Source: a virus
Reading direction: 5' to 3' (one strand)
Virus record (IMG/VR): IMGVR_UViG_3300017605_000114
Location: 1 to 44,769 of that record
Length of the DNA stretch: 44,769 nucleotides
The position numbers and the translations under genes were made by a program. This document shows positions 23,963 through 35,284 of this stretch, in pieces (the stretch's first letter is position 1; the number at the start of each line of letters is the position of its first letter). The notes under the pieces are model-generated. The model did not search any database. It was not told the DNA's origin and worked only from the letters and a program-made list of their open reading frames with translations.

Positions 23963-23982
23963 GCGGGGGCCGAAGCCCCCGC
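23963..23982 (-). terminator. GC-rich hairpin in leftward operon A
   Basis: Perfect 8-bp stem GCGGGGGC / GCCCCCGC; read on the leftward transcript its loop is TTCG. No U-tract follows, so attenuation or mRNA processing between the upstream and downstream genes is more likely than full termination. Confidence 0.55.
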
Positions 23983-26551: not shown

Positions 26552-26570
26552 TGGACGCCTTACCCCATAC
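26552..26570 (-). promoter_or_regulatory. Early-type motif copy before operon A
   Basis: TGGACGCCTTACCCCATAC on the plus strand; on the leftward strand it reads GTATGGGGTAAGGCGTCCA. It lies between the terminator at 26607-26640 and the operator dyads. It is one of about ten related copies in this window, and a promoter or regulator site for leftward transcription is proposed. Confidence 0.55.
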
Positions 26571-26606
26571 ACCGTAGAGCGTCACTACGTCTCTAGATAA
26601 CGCTAC

Positions 26607-28460: not shown

Positions 28461-28827
28461 AGTTGATCCCCCACATGACGGGTGTGCGATGCGGTGTGAT
28501 TGTGAGCATGACCTGATCGGACACCTTGACCGCTACCTCTTTCTTGCCGTCAAGGATGAAGAACGTGTCGCTCACGAAAGGATTATATCGCACACGATGG
28601 AGTAGTCCGCTGTACTCCAAGTCATCGCTGGGTTCGAGGGTGCCTCTCACGAAAGCGTGGACGTTCTTGACTCCAGTCTCCCTCACCCGACGTTGCCCTG
28701 CGGGCTGCACCACGAAGGTGCAGCCCGACAGGACGACCAGTTGACGGTGGTCGATTACTCGACCCCGTTGCCTGATCGAGAAGCAACGCTTGTGCAGGTT
28801 GAAGTAGACCTCAACCCGCCCAACCAT
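28441..28827 (-). CDS. Conserved phage protein (NLHK family)
   Basis: A 128-residue protein in a TGATG overlap. The VYFNLHKRCFSIRQRGRVIDH ... CTFVVQPAGQRRVRETGVKNVHAFVRGTL pattern recurs in many phages, uncharacterised. The C-terminal part is an unrelated beta segment. A strong copy of the repeated motif lies within its coding sequence (28518-28537). Confidence 0.75.
   Translation of the reverse strand: MVGRVEVYFNLHKRCFSIRQRGRVIDHRQLVVLSGCTFVVQPAGQRRVRETGVKNVHAFVRGTLEPSDDLEYSGLLHRVRYNPFVSDTFFILDGKKEVAVKVSDQVMLTITPHRTPVMWGINCGEQQQ
28518..28537 (-). promoter_or_regulatory. Early-type motif copy inside a coding region
   Basis: CGGACACCTTGACCGCTACC on the plus strand matches the copy at 34413-34432 at 17 of 20 positions, although it lies within a leftward gene. 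It could be an internal promoter or a silent binding site, or chance conservation of codons. Confidence 0.4.
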
Positions 28828-29370: not shown

Positions 29371-29395
29371 GGGGTGGGGCCGACTGCCCCACCCC
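29371..29395 (-). terminator. 10-bp perfect hairpin between accessory genes
   Basis: GGGGTGGGGC / GCCCCACCCC around a 5-base loop, between the DUF932 gene and the next gene on the leftward strand. No T-run follows, so it may cut or pause the transcript, or shape the leader of the 28827-29345 gene. Confidence 0.6.
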
Positions 29396-30424: not shown

Positions 30425-30681
30425 CAGTGTCCTTCCTGTTCGCAGAGTGCGAGGATCGCTTCTGCGAACTGTCGTGCTGTCTCGAATGAGACATTCAGGT
30501 TGTCGAGTGTCGAGGGTCCTTTACCGAAATCGCCATTGAATGCGATCTGTCGTTTGGGGTTCGTTGCACGTACCCTCGCCGTAATGAAGCTCCCGCTCCC
30601 GCCCTCCGACTTCAACTCGATGTTGGTGATCGGGTTGATCGGCGGTGGTTCAGGAACGCTTCGCTGGATGTTGACGCTCAT
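30424..30681 (-). CDS. Small paralogue 1 of MxVNxxR family
   Basis: An 85-residue protein starting at ATG 30681 in an ATGA overlap. It begins MSVNIQRSVPEPP; a beta-rich middle follows, then FETARQFAEAILALCEQ. The N-terminal M-x-V-(N/T)-(V/I)-x-R element and C-terminal helix are shared with 30678-30923 and 31535-31771. Function unknown; the family may be phage-specific. Confidence 0.68.
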   Translation of the reverse strand: MSVNIQRSVPEPPPINPITNIELKSEGGSGSFITARVRATNPKRQIAFNGDFGKGPSTLDNLNVSFETARQFAEAILALCEQEGH

Positions 30682-30923
30682 GCCGTCACCACTTCCGTGA
30701 GGGCCTGGATGAGGTCCAGAGCCTCGTTGCGGCGAAGCCTGAGAGTCCATCCACCGCGAGCATCGGAGAGTACGGTGTCACCGAACGCACCGATGCCACT
30801 GAAGATGAATGAACTACCTGACTTATAGAACCTGAAGCCGCGGCCACTGGCATTGCCAGCGACGACGACTTCCTTGGCGGGCGGAGCCTCCGTGGGCTCC
30901 TTTCGCTTGACGTTGACCGCCAT
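30678..30923 (-). CDS. Small paralogue 2 of MxVNxxR family
   Basis: An 81-residue protein, ATG 30923 in a TAATG overlap. MAVNVKRKEPTEAPP leads to a short beta domain (GRGFRFYKSGSSFIFSG) and a final helix (EALDLIQALTEVV). Clear kinship to the two similar small genes nearby. Function unknown. Confidence 0.68.
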   Translation of the reverse strand: MAVNVKRKEPTEAPPAKEVVVAGNASGRGFRFYKSGSSFIFSGIGAFGDTVLSDARGGWTLRLRRNEALDLIQALTEVVTA

Positions 30924-31114: not shown

Positions 31115-31535
31115 GGCGAGCTTCGATCACTCGTCGCCACTCAGCCGTCAACGCGACCCATTCTTCTGTCTTGAACGTGAGCGTGTGGAAGCCCAGTTCC
31201 CGTGCTTCCTGCTCGCTGAGGATCATCGACGGCAAGCCGTTGATGCCTTCCAGCCAGGTAGGATCGCCGTCGCAGAGAGCATCGAACGCCATGTCCTTGA
31301 TGTCGAGGGCCTTCTCGCCCAACTCTTCGTCATCCTCGTAGCGTTCGGCTTGGTTGGTCACGATCTGTCCGAGGACGCAGTTACAGGACGATGCCAGATC
31401 GAGAGTGGAGAGATCGACTTCCTCGTCCCATCCCTTGTGGACTCTGTCCAGCCACGAGACGCCGAGGGCGACTCGCAGAGGATAGTTCGTCCCGAAACTA
31501 CCGCTGTTGATGAGGCTTTCGGTGAGTTCTCCCAT
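31104..31535 (-). CDS. Conserved phage protein (LDxVxxGWxxxVDLxTLDL family)
   Basis: A 143-residue protein in a TGATG overlap. SWLDRVHKGWDEEVDLSTLDLASSCNCVLGQIV is the signature of a frequent phage protein with a Cys-x-Cys-VLGQ element. The C-terminal part (EARELGFHTLTFKTEEWVALTAEWRRVIE) is also conserved in pattern. Function unknown. Confidence 0.72.
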   Translation of the reverse strand: MGELTESLINSGSFGTNYPLRVALGVSWLDRVHKGWDEEVDLSTLDLASSCNCVLGQIVTNQAERYEDDEELGEKALDIKDMAFDALCDGDPTWLEGINGLPSMILSEQEARELGFHTLTFKTEEWVALTAEWRRVIEARRGT

Positions 31536-31771
31536 CACTTACCGTCCGCGATGTCGATGAGCGCCTGTCCGAACGAGCGGAGGTCACCGAGCGTTGCCGC
31601 CCATTTAGCCTCCATGCTGAAGCTGCTGTGAAGCTCGACCGTTCGCACGTTCGACCTTCCATTCGAGACGGGACGAACGACGACGCTGCGCCCACTCGGG
31701 CCAGCGAGCGTTACCGTCTCGATGGGTTCGACTGACGGCTTCGGGTCCTGTCTCTTCACTGTGACACCCAT
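31535..31771 (-). CDS. Small paralogue 3 of MxVNxxR family
   Basis: A 78-residue protein with AAAGGAG upstream of ATG 31771. It begins MGVTVKRQDPKP, then a beta-rich middle and the C-terminal helix SFGQALIDIA. It has its own leader hairpin (31810-31838). Related to 30424-30681 and 30678-30923; function unknown. Confidence 0.68.
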   Translation of the reverse strand: MGVTVKRQDPKPSVEPIETVTLAGPSGRSVVVRPVSNGRSNVRTVELHSSFSMEAKWAATLGDLRSFGQALIDIADGK

Positions 31772-31795
31772 GATAAGTGTCTCCTTTCTGTTGTT

Positions 31796-31848
31796 GTGGA
31801 ACCGAGCAAGCGCCCTGGCCCGAAGGAAGCCAGGGCGCAGAGGTCACC
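31796..31848 (-). promoter_or_regulatory. Conserved leader hairpin, copy 1
   Basis: A 10-bp perfect stem at 31810-31838 with the 9-base loop CCGAAGGAA (plus strand; TTCCTTCGG on the transcript). It sits 39 bases upstream of a leftward start. Copy 2 lies at 34347-34397. The two copies share the loop and flanks and carry one compensatory stem change (C-G versus G-C at stem position 4), which supports an RNA structure. The loop can pair with the downstream AAGGAG ribosome-binding site. Confidence 0.68.
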
Positions 31849-32728
31849 CTGTGTGGACTTTCCTTACCATGTCCCATTTGCCCTTGCGCATGCGACCTTT
31901 GGCTCTCAGACCAACGATGACATAGCTAGGGTCCAGCCATCTGTCGTCGTGCAGGTCACCGTCGATCACCTGGACACCTTGCCAGATACCAGGTAGTGGT
32001 TGACCAACAGGCACGTCGAACAGAACGGCTGTGTTCACGCCTTGCAACGCTTGACGAACGATACCTTCGTTCGTCGTCTTCTCGCTTGCGCTGTACGTGA
32101 GACGATAGTTGCCAGGCCACTCGAAGGCACCGAGGTTGGCATCCATAGCGCGGATACCCCACTTGGTGTAGTCGTAGAAGCGCAGACGCGGGAACATCTC
32201 GAAGAGTGTGATCGCACGCTGTTGCTGTACTTCCACCCCGTGAGGGGTGACGTAGATCGTCTCCCACGGAATGTCTGAGAAGTTGTTGAGCCGCACGCGA
32301 GCATCGACGCCGTACTTGTCCCACACCTTCTGCAACTCGTACACGAGCAATGTGAGGAACTCCGCTGGGTGCTCTGCCAAGAACAGAGTCTTGATGACGC
32401 GGGCCTTGATGACCCACGGCATCTCACCGTGGCCAGCATAGGCCACACATCCCTTACGACAGTTCGCTGTACTGAACCTGCAAATGTTCCACAAGATCGA
32501 GAGCATCGCAGGGGCCAACGAGAGTCCGAACTCGAAGATGCCGTTCTTGAGGCCCTTACCGAGCTTCGCATTCGCCGTTGGCGGTGTGAGCAGTTGAGGG
32601 ACTTGCCCCTTGGTCGGGGGAGCCCCCTGGTCGACGCGGAACTGCCTGTAACAGTCCCGCGCCGACTGGAGGTCCACCAACTGGAACGGTCCCTGGTCCT
32701 GCAGATGGCGAACCAGGTCCGTTGCCAT
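31844..32728 (-). CDS. GP88-like conserved phage protein
   Basis: A 294-residue protein in a TGATG overlap. FSTANCRKGCVAYAGHG (C90, C94), RVRLNNFSDIPWE, FPRLRFYDYTKW, NYRLTYSASE and PGIWQGVQVIDGDLHDDRWLDP ... VGLRAKGRMRKG match the gene product 88 family seen in mycobacteriophages and others. The CxxxC near a Tyr resembles metal-binding or radical-type motifs, but the biochemistry is unknown. Coded bases 31971-31990 include a weak copy of the repeated motif. Confidence 0.8.
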   Translation of the reverse strand: MATDLVRHLQDQGPFQLVDLQSARDCYRQFRVDQGAPPTKGQVPQLLTPPTANAKLGKGLKNGIFEFGLSLAPAMLSILWNICRFSTANCRKGCVAYAGHGEMPWVIKARVIKTLFLAEHPAEFLTLLVYELQKVWDKYGVDARVRLNNFSDIPWETIYVTPHGVEVQQQRAITLFEMFPRLRFYDYTKWGIRAMDANLGAFEWPGNYRLTYSASEKTTNEGIVRQALQGVNTAVLFDVPVGQPLPGIWQGVQVIDGDLHDDRWLDPSYVIVGLRAKGRMRKGKWDMVRKVHTG

Positions 32729-33225
32729 CAGTCCAACTGCTCTTGCAGGACGGCGATGCGGTCGCAGAGCCTGCCGATCTCCGTCTCCTTGCGCGTGGCG
32801 ATGTCGCCAAGCTCGACCAGGTCCGAGAAGATCCTGGAGATTTGGTCGAACGTCACGCCGCCGTCGTTGAGGGCGATGAGGATGCGCTGTACGAAGGTGT
32901 GCATCCCCAGCTTCTCCAACTGCTCGATGGAGAACTTGCCCGTTGCACCGCCGATGCAGAGGTTCTTACCCTCTGTCTCATATTCGGGGATGTCTTCGAC
33001 CTTGAAGAAGTTGGCCAGCGGAGTGCCCGCCCACTTCTTCGCAGCCAACTCACCCACAACTCCGAGGCAGCAGTGCTTCGCCTCGACCTTCGTGGTGGCG
33101 AACGTCACGTTGCCCTCGTGGGACTCCGTCTTCTCGACTTGTACGTGCTTCAACGTACCCTCGGTCTGCACGTAGTCACCGCAACGCAACGCGTCGAGCA
33201 CCCTGTACTTGAGGTCCTGATCCAC
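32728..33225 (-). CDS. CCLGV-family phage protein, paralogue 3 (diverged)
   Basis: A 165-residue protein with GTG start 33225. LKYRVLDALRCGDYVQTEGTL, HCCLGVVGELAAKKW and LIALNDGGVTFDQISRI keep the family order of the 26897 and 27259 genes but lose the third Cys. The C-terminal helix (RKETEIGRLCDRIAVLQEQL) is an added coiled-coil-like stretch. Paralogous expansion; function unknown. Confidence 0.76.
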   Translation of the reverse strand: MDQDLKYRVLDALRCGDYVQTEGTLKHVQVEKTESHEGNVTFATTKVEAKHCCLGVVGELAAKKWAGTPLANFFKVEDIPEYETEGKNLCIGGATGKFSIEQLEKLGMHTFVQRILIALNDGGVTFDQISRIFSDLVELGDIATRKETEIGRLCDRIAVLQEQLD

Positions 33226-33603
33226 TCACTTGCTCCCTTCGTTGGTGAACTCACACTGTCCAGTGTGAATGTTGAACTCTTCCTTACGACATGTTGGCTC
33301 GTTGTCGCCGTTGGCGACACACGGAGCCTCGCTGTTCTGCGCAGTACACAGACGCGGCGTGCCACAGATATGATTACCCATTGTGTGGCAGTCCCAACAC
33401 GGCATGTCTTCCTGACATGACTTGTGGATCGCAGTACCGATACGAACTCGCTGGACCTGCTGGCATCCCGCCAGGAGCGTGAACAAAAGCAACGCGGTGA
33501 TGACGATGAACACAACCGACTTTGCGGCCGACCACTGCTCGTGGTGCGAAGCCCGCTCCACCTCGACAACCTTGTCGGTCGAGGACGACTGGGTGTTAGA
33601 CAT
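33226..33603 (-). CDS. Cys-rich exported protein, lipoprotein candidate
   Basis: A 125-residue protein. After a 28-residue polar start lies a hydrophobic segment (SVVFIVITALLLFTLLAGC) ending in an LAGC lipobox-like sequence. The mature part has eight more Cys residues in a compact polar domain (SCQEDMPCWDCH, ICGTPRLCTAQ, CVANGDNEPTCRKE, GQCEF), likely disulphide-bonded outside the cell. It may act at the host surface, for example in superinfection exclusion; this is inference. ATG 33603 overlaps the upstream gene by 8 bases. Confidence 0.7.
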   Translation of the reverse strand: MSNTQSSSTDKVVEVERASHHEQWSAAKSVVFIVITALLLFTLLAGCQQVQRVRIGTAIHKSCQEDMPCWDCHTMGNHICGTPRLCTAQNSEAPCVANGDNEPTCRKEEFNIHTGQCEFTNEGSK

Positions 33604-33754
33604 GGACCTGACTCCTGTCGATCAGCTTCGACTTGAGTTCGGCCACATCCTCGATGATGTCTCCCCGAGGCCACCCCCACGCTTCGAGCTTGAGGGCTTC
33701 TGCAGTGCTCTGAGCGGAGATCCCCAGCAGAGCACACAACGTCTCTAGCGACAT
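33596..33754 (-). CDS. Small hypothetical protein
   Basis: A 52-residue protein with GGGAGAG upstream of ATG 33754. SLETLCALLGISAQSTAEALKLEAWGWPRGDIIEDV contains a short helix-turn-helix-like stretch, but evidence is weak. It starts a transcription unit just after the motif copy at 33772. Confidence 0.62.
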   Translation of the reverse strand: MSLETLCALLGISAQSTAEALKLEAWGWPRGDIIEDVAELKSKLIDRSQVHV

Positions 33755-33771
33755 TGCACTCTCCCTTCATT

Positions 33772-33791
33772 TGGACACCTTCATCGCTACC
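33772..33791 (-). promoter_or_regulatory. Early-type motif copy
   Basis: TGGACACCTTCATCGCTACC on the plus strand, between the terminator at 33804-33838 and ATG 33754, 18 bases before the leftward start. Promoter or operator proposed. Confidence 0.55.
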
Positions 33792-33803
33792 ACTTACTGG
33801 CTG

Positions 33804-33838
33804 AAAAATGAGAGAGAGCAGGGCCGAAGCCCTGCCCT
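33804..33838 (-). terminator. Rho-independent terminator with TTCG loop
   Basis: GCAGGGC / GCCCTGC stem (33818-33835), read leftward with a TTCG loop, followed by TCTCTCTCA and five T residues (33804-33808). It ends the unit that contains 33847-34304. Confidence 0.82.
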
Positions 33839-33846
33839 CTCCCTGC

Positions 33847-34029
33847 TCACTCGGTACCCAGACCGAACGGACTGTGATCCGCCATGTCGGCCTGCTTGCG
33901 ACCCTCATCGCGGTTGAGCTTCGCGATGATTGCCTGCTGGACATCCGACCACGTCCAGTGGTCAGGCATGTCGACAACGATCTCCTGCCTCTTCCAGCCG
34001 AGAGCAGGGCCGTTCGGATCGAGAGCCAT
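33847..34029 (-). CDS. Small hypothetical protein
   Basis: A 60-residue protein; ATG 34029 lies in a TGATG overlap. It has GPALGWKRQEIVVDMPDHWTWSDVQQAIIAKLNRDEG, a strand-helix pattern. The longer frame upstream is a shadow. Function unknown. Confidence 0.65.
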   Translation of the reverse strand: MALDPNGPALGWKRQEIVVDMPDHWTWSDVQQAIIAKLNRDEGRKQADMADHSPFGLGTE

Positions 34030-34304
34030 CACGCACTCTCGGACTGCTCGACCGCACGCGCGAGGCCATTCAACGTCGGCCTCGCCTCCCGCATCGGCTT
34101 GTGAGCCGACTGCAGGTACTTCACTGCGTCGTCCCACTCTTCGAGGTCCTGGATCAGCCTCGTCACTGCGAGGCGGACCAGCTTCGAGACACTGAACGCC
34201 TGCTGCGCAGGGTTCGTGACCTTCCGTGTGGCTTCCGCCAGGACACGCAACGCGTGGTACTGGTGAATACCGAGGAACACTGACACTGGCCTGTACTTCT
34301 GCAT
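34029..34304 (-). CDS. Ribbon-helix-helix-like small regulator candidate
   Basis: A 91-residue protein with AGGAGAG before ATG 34304. RPVSVFLGIHQYHALRVLAEATRKV ... AFSVSKLVRLAVTRLIQDLEEW has a strand-helix-turn-helix layout like CopG/RHH regulators. It could control accessory units. Its leader contains hairpin copy 2. Confidence 0.55.
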   Translation of the reverse strand: MQKYRPVSVFLGIHQYHALRVLAEATRKVTNPAQQAFSVSKLVRLAVTRLIQDLEEWDDAVKYLQSAHKPMREARPTLNGLARAVEQSESA

Positions 34305-34346
34305 TGCGCTCTCCTGTGGTTGAAACCCGTGAGGGTTGCTGTGGAA

Positions 34347-34397
34347 GGAACAGACCAAGCGGCCTGGCCCGAAGGAAGCCAGGCCGCAAGGTCATAC
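34347..34397 (-). promoter_or_regulatory. Conserved leader hairpin, copy 2
   Basis: Stem GCGGCCTGGC / GCCAGGCCGC at 34359-34387 with the loop CCGAAGGAA, identical to copy 1 at 31810-31838. It lies 55 bases upstream of ATG 34304. Stem position 4 is G-C here and C-G in copy 1 (compensatory). Flanks GGAACnGAnCAAGCG and AGGTCA are also shared. Structured leader, attenuator or protein-binding RNA proposed. Confidence 0.68.
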
Positions 34398-34412
34398 TGT
34401 ACTCGCTGGGAT

Positions 34413-34432
34413 TGGACGCCTTGACCCCTACC
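34413..34432 (-). promoter_or_regulatory. Early-type motif copy
   Basis: TGGACGCCTTGACCCCTACC on the plus strand; leftward GGTAGGGGTCAAGG resembles the mycobacteriophage stoperator consensus at about 10 of 13 positions. A TTGTAC ... TAGGGG pair with 17-base spacing overlaps it, suggesting a promoter with the terminator's T-tract as its -35 element. Confidence 0.5.
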
Positions 34433-34463
34433 CACTACTCGCGGTAGGTACAAATGAAAGTGA

Positions 34464-34492
34464 GGGCTGGCATGCTTGCGCATGCCAACCCC
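34464..34492 (-). terminator. Hairpin terminator ending the 34504-34692 unit
   Basis: GGCATGC / GCATGCC core stem (34469-34486) with outer GGG-CCC pairs; the leftward transcript continues CACTTTCATTTG, a weak T-rich tail. Probable terminator of the gene at 34504. Confidence 0.6.
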
Positions 34493-34503
34493 CACGAGAG
34501 CTA

Positions 34504-34692
34504 CTACCAGCCCCTGTGCTCCCGAAGCAGAGCTTGGGGAGACAGGATGAGGTTGCCGTCCGCATCCGTACGACAGTCGTCATACTCGGGCTGCAAGTGA
34601 GGCCACACCTTCCGTGTGACCTTCAACGCGGGCTCGTTGTTGATCGTGCGCTCTGCCAGCGGCAGACCGCGGTTCTTCCGACGCTTCATCAT
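34504..34692 (-). CDS. Small basic hypothetical protein
   Basis: A 62-residue protein from ATG 34692 (or 34689). MMKRRKNRGLPLAERTINNEPALKVTRKVWPHLQPEYDDCRT with a polar C-terminus; no family recognised. Sole gene in its transcription unit between two terminators. Confidence 0.6.
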   Translation of the reverse strand: MMKRRKNRGLPLAERTINNEPALKVTRKVWPHLQPEYDDCRTDADGNLILSPQALLREHRGW

Positions 34693-34714
34693 GGCTGACT
34701 CGCTTTCTTGTTGA

Positions 34715-34734
34715 TGGACACCTTGCCCCCTACC
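34715..34734 (-). promoter_or_regulatory. Early-type motif copy
   Basis: TGGACACCTTGCCCCCTACC on the plus strand, 23 bases before ATG 34692. A TTGTAC follows the terminator's T-tract and precedes TAGGGG with an 18-base spacer. Probable promoter or binding site for leftward transcription. Confidence 0.55.
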
Positions 34735-34753
34735 AATCACTAGCGTGGAGGTA

Positions 34754-34793
34754 CAAAAAAAGGGAGAGAGGCGGCTTGCGCCGCCCCTCTCCC
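34754..34793 (-). terminator. Strong rho-independent terminator
   Basis: Long stem GGGAGAGAGGCGGC / GCCGCCCCTCTCCC with loop TTGC (34762-34793), followed leftward by seven T residues. Ends the 34802-35284 unit. Confidence 0.85.
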
Positions 34794-34801
34794 GCCGAGA
34801 G

Positions 34802-35284
34802 CTAGAAGCTCTCGGCCTGTGCGCTCACCTCAGTGAGCGCACCGTCAGCGCCTCGCTTGAGGCGCTGACCACCGAAGTGCTCGATCATCTCGCCGTAGCC
34901 CAGCTTGCGGATCGAGAAGACGCCTTCGGCGGACTTCTCGACCAGCACCTGGGTCGACTCGATGTGCACCTCGTCGGTGTCATCATCGACGGCCCGAGCG
35001 GAGAGGTCGTAGACCCCTTCCGCCTTCGGGACCTCGAAGGCGAACCACTTGTCGAGCCAGCCGTGCTGCTCGACATCGTAGGTCGGGACGGAACGCCCGC
35101 CACCCTGCGGGTGGGGGGCGATTCCGACGATCTTCCGACCGACGAGAGTGCGGAGTTGCACTCCGCTCACGTACACTTTCACCAACCAGCGGTCGCCAAG
35201 GTCGACCAGGTTGGTGAACGTGCTCGCTTGCGTTGCGGCTTCCGCCTTCGGCGGAGCCTGACGCGTGCGCTTCGCAACTGCCAT
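34802..35284 (-). CDS. Hypothetical protein, possibly abundant early protein
   Basis: A 160-residue protein with GGAG upstream of ATG 35284. It starts with a basic, Ala-rich tail (MAVAKRTRQAPPKAEAATQA) followed by a soluble alpha/beta-like domain with FTNLVDLGDRWLVKVYV and VYDLSARAVDDDTDEV. A long structured leader (35285-35879) precedes it and a strong terminator follows, so it is a single-gene unit with an unusually elaborate 5' region. No family recognised. Confidence 0.68.
   Translation of the reverse strand: MAVAKRTRQAPPKAEAATQASTFTNLVDLGDRWLVKVYVSGVQLRTLVGRKIVGIAPHPQGGGRSVPTYDVEQHGWLDKWFAFEVPKAEGVYDLSARAVDDDTDEVHIESTQVLVEKSAEGVFSIRKLGYGEMIEHFGGQRLKRGADGALTEVSAQAESF

Follow-up and report, generated by a model that had tools for sequence, protein, structure and literature searches.

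In phage T7, intercistronic RNase III hairpins and a stem-loop in the gene 10 leader process or stabilize the mRNA. A few cultured phages are known to carry repeated hairpins ahead of start codons, and the role of these is unsettled. The nearest described kind to the hairpins reported here is the extended start-associated sequence (ESAS) found in cluster K mycobacteriophages. ESAS are inverted repeats before start codons whose arms differ between subclusters and whose function is unsettled (PMC3203893), and which were later found to contain promoter hexamers (PMC11373665). In phage T4, a hairpin located approximately 40 nt upstream of the start codon of gene 43 can serve as a translational operator (PMC3014915). 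The DNA analyzed here, which we call the window, is the phage record IMGVR_UViG_3300017605_000114 of IMG/VR over its full 44,769 nt. Its plus strand carries podovirus-like structural genes (terminase, portal, and major head protein), and its leftward early/replication arm encodes a DnaB-like helicase, a primase, a nuclease, DUF932, and gp88, with genes called by a simple home-made predictor.

Two hairpins lie in this leftward arm, both on the transcribed strand, which is the strand of the flanking genes. An earlier note on this DNA had described them as sharing a common loop and differing by one compensatory pair, which was confirmed by direct reading of the sequence. Copy 1 (31810..31838, minus strand) reads GCGCCCTGGC-TTCCTTCGG-GCCAGGGCGC from 31838 to 31810, and copy 2 (34359..34387, minus strand) reads GCGGCCTGGC-TTCCTTCGG-GCCAGGCCGC from 34387 to 34359. 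Each forms a GC stem of 10 bp with the same 9-nt loop (UUCCUUCGG), and the sole difference between the copies in stem or loop is stem pair 4, where one copy has C-G and the other G-C. Copy 2 has an additional lower stem, GACC/GGUC, beyond a UU/UU internal loop, and both hairpins carry a CUUCGG apex on the transcribed strand. The RNA fold z-scores on that strand were -2.8 and -6.9, the fold there was stronger than on the opposite strand, and a 10-bp stem was rare in dinucleotide shuffles of each copy's gap (P of 0.00 and 0.01).

The hairpins are part of a duplicated unit of approximately 50 nt (31797..31846, starting with the gp88 stop codon, and 34346..34394, both minus strand) that is roughly 85 to 90% identical between its two copies. 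Copy 1 begins 5 nt past the end of the gp88-family gene (PF17338; 31844..32728, minus strand) and ends 38 nt before the start codon of P0002, a 78-aa orphan gene (31535..31771, minus strand) with the Shine-Dalgarno site AAAGGAG at 31781..31787 (minus strand). Copy 2 ends 54 nt before the start codon of P0004, a 91-aa orphan gene (34029..34304, minus strand) with the Shine-Dalgarno site AGGAG at 34311..34315 (minus strand). No homology was found between the P0002 and P0004 proteins; thus, the unit appears to have been copied without its gene. P0004 was considered as a possible ribbon-helix-helix auto-repressor and rejected, with no Pfam or PHROG match and a weak all-helical model. The short minus-strand proteins at 30678-30923 and 31535-31771 have similar N-termini (MAVNVKRKEP and MGVTVKRQDP) and are possible paralogues (E value of 0.014).

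The window hairpins resemble ESAS in being genome-specific inverted repeats with varying arms that recur several times in a genome, ahead of the start codons of a subset of nonstructural genes, and here the inverted repeats do lie just upstream of nonstructural gene starts, at 38 and 54 nt. They differ in that their arms are shorter and their copies far fewer, and in two further features. The 13-bp SAS GGGATAGGAGCCC that adjoins the start codon in ESAS was not found in the full leaders, ACAGAAAGGAGACACTTATCATG and CCACAGGAGAGCGCAATG, and a sigma-70 scan found no promoter hexamers within the inverted repeat at either copy. Given that SAS and promoter are defining features of ESAS, the window hairpins are not members of this kind and were not filed as such. 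The T7 hairpins are similar as strong stem-loops between or before genes, although cleavage of those in the window by RNase III would be putative.

The two hairpins are also not plain terminators, given that the tails after the 10-bp stems (TTGCTCGGTT and TTGGTCTGTT) contain no T-run and that copy 2 precedes its gene. A terminator scan listed 34762, 34460, and 33810 but neither 10-bp stem, and the leftward terminator-like sites at 33810-34793 carry T-runs, unlike the two hairpins. Copy 2 stands before its gene and after a terminator-like hairpin (34460..34495, minus strand) and a promoter-like repeat of the AAGGyGTCCA family (34413..34442, minus strand), the latter lying between the U-tract terminator and copy 2. 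A further terminator-like hairpin (33810..33843, minus strand) ends the copy-2 gene unit. The promoter-like repeat, which contains no sigma-70 hexamers, is found on the minus strand as GGTAGsG..cAAGGyGTCCA at 34715-34744, 34413-34442, 33772-33801, 28518-28547, 26552-26581, and 31971-32000, and the first three of these lie directly 3' of terminator-like hairpins with T-rich tails. The motif AAGGnGTCCA is also present three times on the same strand in the relative G001, twice after a terminator-like hairpin.

Of the 12 leftward gaps in the window that span 40 nt or more, 9 hold a hairpin at a shuffle P of ≤0.02, compared to 14 of 120 coding-stretch controls in the same test; these gap statistics rest on few gaps, but they indicate an arm rich in intergenic hairpins, among which the pair is one duplicated type. 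Some of these intergenic hairpins are terminators, and one upstream hairpin of different sequence (29371..29395, minus strand) separates the DUF932 gene from the one that follows. The distance from hairpin to start codon is variable, at about 20 to 55 nt. In other phages, 51 of the 206 gaps around gp88 genes (25%) had a hairpin, a count for which the stem also had to reach 7 bp, and not all gp88 relatives carry the hairpins.

The 21-base core of the pair, with up to three mismatches allowed, occurs at just these two places in the window (0.00 expected), and searching with a covariance model built from both copies yielded no other convincing match in the window or its relatives. A blastn search against phage records gave no match, and Rfam gave 0 matches in the window at the gathering score and none at the hairpins in a lax search. 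The 17-base core was present in 25 genome contigs across 257 Gb of bacterial and archaeal genomes, approximately the chance level by estimate, and none of the 25 extends the stem beyond two further pairs. The single IMG/VR match to this core, at 2188-2234 of the serine-integrase contig L003 from an unrelated phage, is doubtful; its hairpin has the same loop and an A.C mismatch, lies in noncoding sequence that ends with a terminator, and may be a coincidence.

The best relatives found were G001 and G003, with portal identities of 57% and 58%, respectively, and a DUF932 search yielded no new close relative. G001 lacks the window hairpin but carries three others, located upstream of the genes that start at 23970, 24833, and 25691, one reading GGCUGCGGCAGCC-UGAG-GGCUgGCCGCAGCC and two reading GGGGGCGGCAGCC-UACG-GGCUgGCCGCCCCC. 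Among these three copies, two pairs are compensated and zero are broken, a bulged G is conserved on one side, and the 4-nt apex is asymmetric throughout, with a CUACGG apex on the transcribed strand in two of the three. A second phage contig, L060, whose gp88 is 43% identical, has five copies of NNAACUUAUCAGCCUGAUAAGUUNN before start codons with Shine-Dalgarno sites close behind. Three pair positions are compensated among the five, and two pairs are broken, both in the divergent copy at approximately position 92. Window copy 1 and one L060 copy share an identical linker, ACAACAGAAAGGA, ahead of the start codon. The five L060 copies, between 92 and 5676, are near-perfect 21-bp palindromes, AACTTATCAGCCTGATAAGTT, symmetric to the center base, and AGGATATCCT-like palindromes occur near several gene starts of L060.

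A hairpin follows DUF932 at a matching place in the window, G001, and L060, and another follows gp88 at a matching place in the window, L059, L060, and L061, in both cases with unrelated sequences. Since the hairpins of different phages have unrelated sequences, they do not imply a common binding partner. Over the window, G001, and L060, six pair positions are compensated and two cells are broken. The earlier note had taken the change at pair 4 as a sign of a selected RNA structure. Two copies alone are too few for covariation statistics, and the covariation value of the window pair is weak by itself, being matched by 249 of 500 shuffles and open to mimicry by template switching. What stands of that claim is a selected structure upstream of genes, and it stands mainly through the multicopy hairpins of G001 and L060 with their compensated pairs.

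The presence, strand, and position of the two hairpins, their duplication, the pairing-preserving change, and the parallel hairpins in relatives are established. Given that pairing is maintained among the copies of three phages, which lie near start codons on the coding strand, we favor a selected stem, and we tentatively consider it most likely to be an mRNA stability or processing element. The relatives' own repeated hairpins occupy similar sites with different sequences; thus, they and the window pair look like mRNA-control structures. If the stems matter and the sequence does not, processing or stability of the mRNA would be favored over a sequence-specific switch. The unit of approximately 50 nt was duplicated within the leftward early/replication arm, and we propose that its copies now stand in the mRNA shortly before two small genes unrelated to each other, as part of a strong hairpin set that fills most gaps of this arm. 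The unit is probably transcribed and would work as RNA rather than DNA, with the stem-loop protecting or defining the 5' end of the message that follows and, in the case of copy 1, possibly also the 3' end of the gp88 message; the A/C-rich linker could meanwhile keep the Shine-Dalgarno site open. A role in mRNA stability or processing is the most economical one, with a DNA-bound site and a protein-bound mRNA operator next.

A dimeric phage protein acting as a repressor or organizer could instead bind the inverted repeat as a DNA duplex, with compensation keeping the dyad symmetry. We consider this unlikely, even though the L060 copies, as near-perfect palindromes symmetric to the center base, would suit it, and even though the more than 30 dyad 17-bp repeats of cluster O mycobacteriophages have been read as protein sites (PMC4351075). 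The cluster O repeats resemble the window hairpins as short dyad repeats, many of them before genes, but keep their arms invariant around a short spacer that varies, whereas the window hairpins have a fixed loop and arms that change pairwise. By eye, the product of the gene after copy 2 resembles a ribbon-helix-helix protein, an idea that neither databases nor modeling supported. The asymmetric 9-nt spacer is identical in both window copies, the bulged G of G001 is one-sided and its apex asymmetric in three of three copies, and most sites lie between genes of one operon and not at recognized promoters, all of which argue against duplex binding. An RNA form is somewhat favored over a DNA form by the bulge, by the fixed and asymmetric loop, and by the UNCG-type apex of the transcribed strand. 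By analogy with T4 gp43, a phage protein might also bind the hairpin in mRNA and repress the downstream genes. The distance, the identical loop, and the compensated stem would all fit, and the T4 and RB69 operators likewise place a hairpin tens of nucleotides upstream of the start codon and keep its top and loop (PMC3014915). However, in those phages one protein represses its own gene, whereas unrelated genes follow the copies here, no candidate binding protein was found, and the loop is wholly different between relatives, which makes such an operator rather improbable.

It is about equally improbable that the pair is a recent duplication kept by chance, in which a single template switch made the compensated pair and the hairpins are T-run-less terminators or functionless. 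There are only two copies, copy 1 lies directly at the gp88 stop codon, and a single template-switch event in replication is able to produce compensated stems without selection (PMC8794818). Against this explanation stand the balance of compensated to broken pairs over three phages, the hairpins that relatives carry at matching positions, and the location of copy 2 before, not after, its gene. The earlier note had further suggested a possible translational switch based on pairing of the loop with the Shine-Dalgarno site downstream. Such a switch, which would close that site, we now regard as very unlikely, given that the loop is nonspecific and is not kept in relatives. The loop can form 6 bp with the copy-1 AAGGAG, including a terminal G-U, and only 5 bp, with a G-U, with the copy-2 AGGAG, and complementarity to both was found in 1.6% of random genome 9-mers. 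However, at least five bases of the loop match 55 of the 71 predicted ribosome sites, which marks it as nonspecific, the MFE structure of leader 2 pairs the Shine-Dalgarno site with the linker UUCCUU and not with the loop, and the loops of the relatives (UACG/UGAG and GCC) cannot pair with their own Shine-Dalgarno sites.

Beyond the stability or processing reading that we prefer for the pair itself, a broader and speculative possibility, to which we assign a low likelihood, concerns the gp88/DUF932 lineage. Upstream early-arm hairpins in these phages might keep their places while their sequence is replaced wholesale, with each genome respreading its own version to several genes and the copies staying paired, as a turnover-prone RNA regulatory set that is perhaps responsive to a single RNA-binding factor of the phage or the host. 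An independent, testable set is provided by several uncultured phages, each with paired copies of its own in front of early genes. Elsewhere in the window, three tandem hairpins of 10 to 11 bp lie at 34762-34869 on the minus strand, at the 3' end of the open reading frame at 34802-35284, and are followed by a terminator with seven T; this stretch has a weak Rfam resemblance, below the gathering score, to the sRNA BjrC68.
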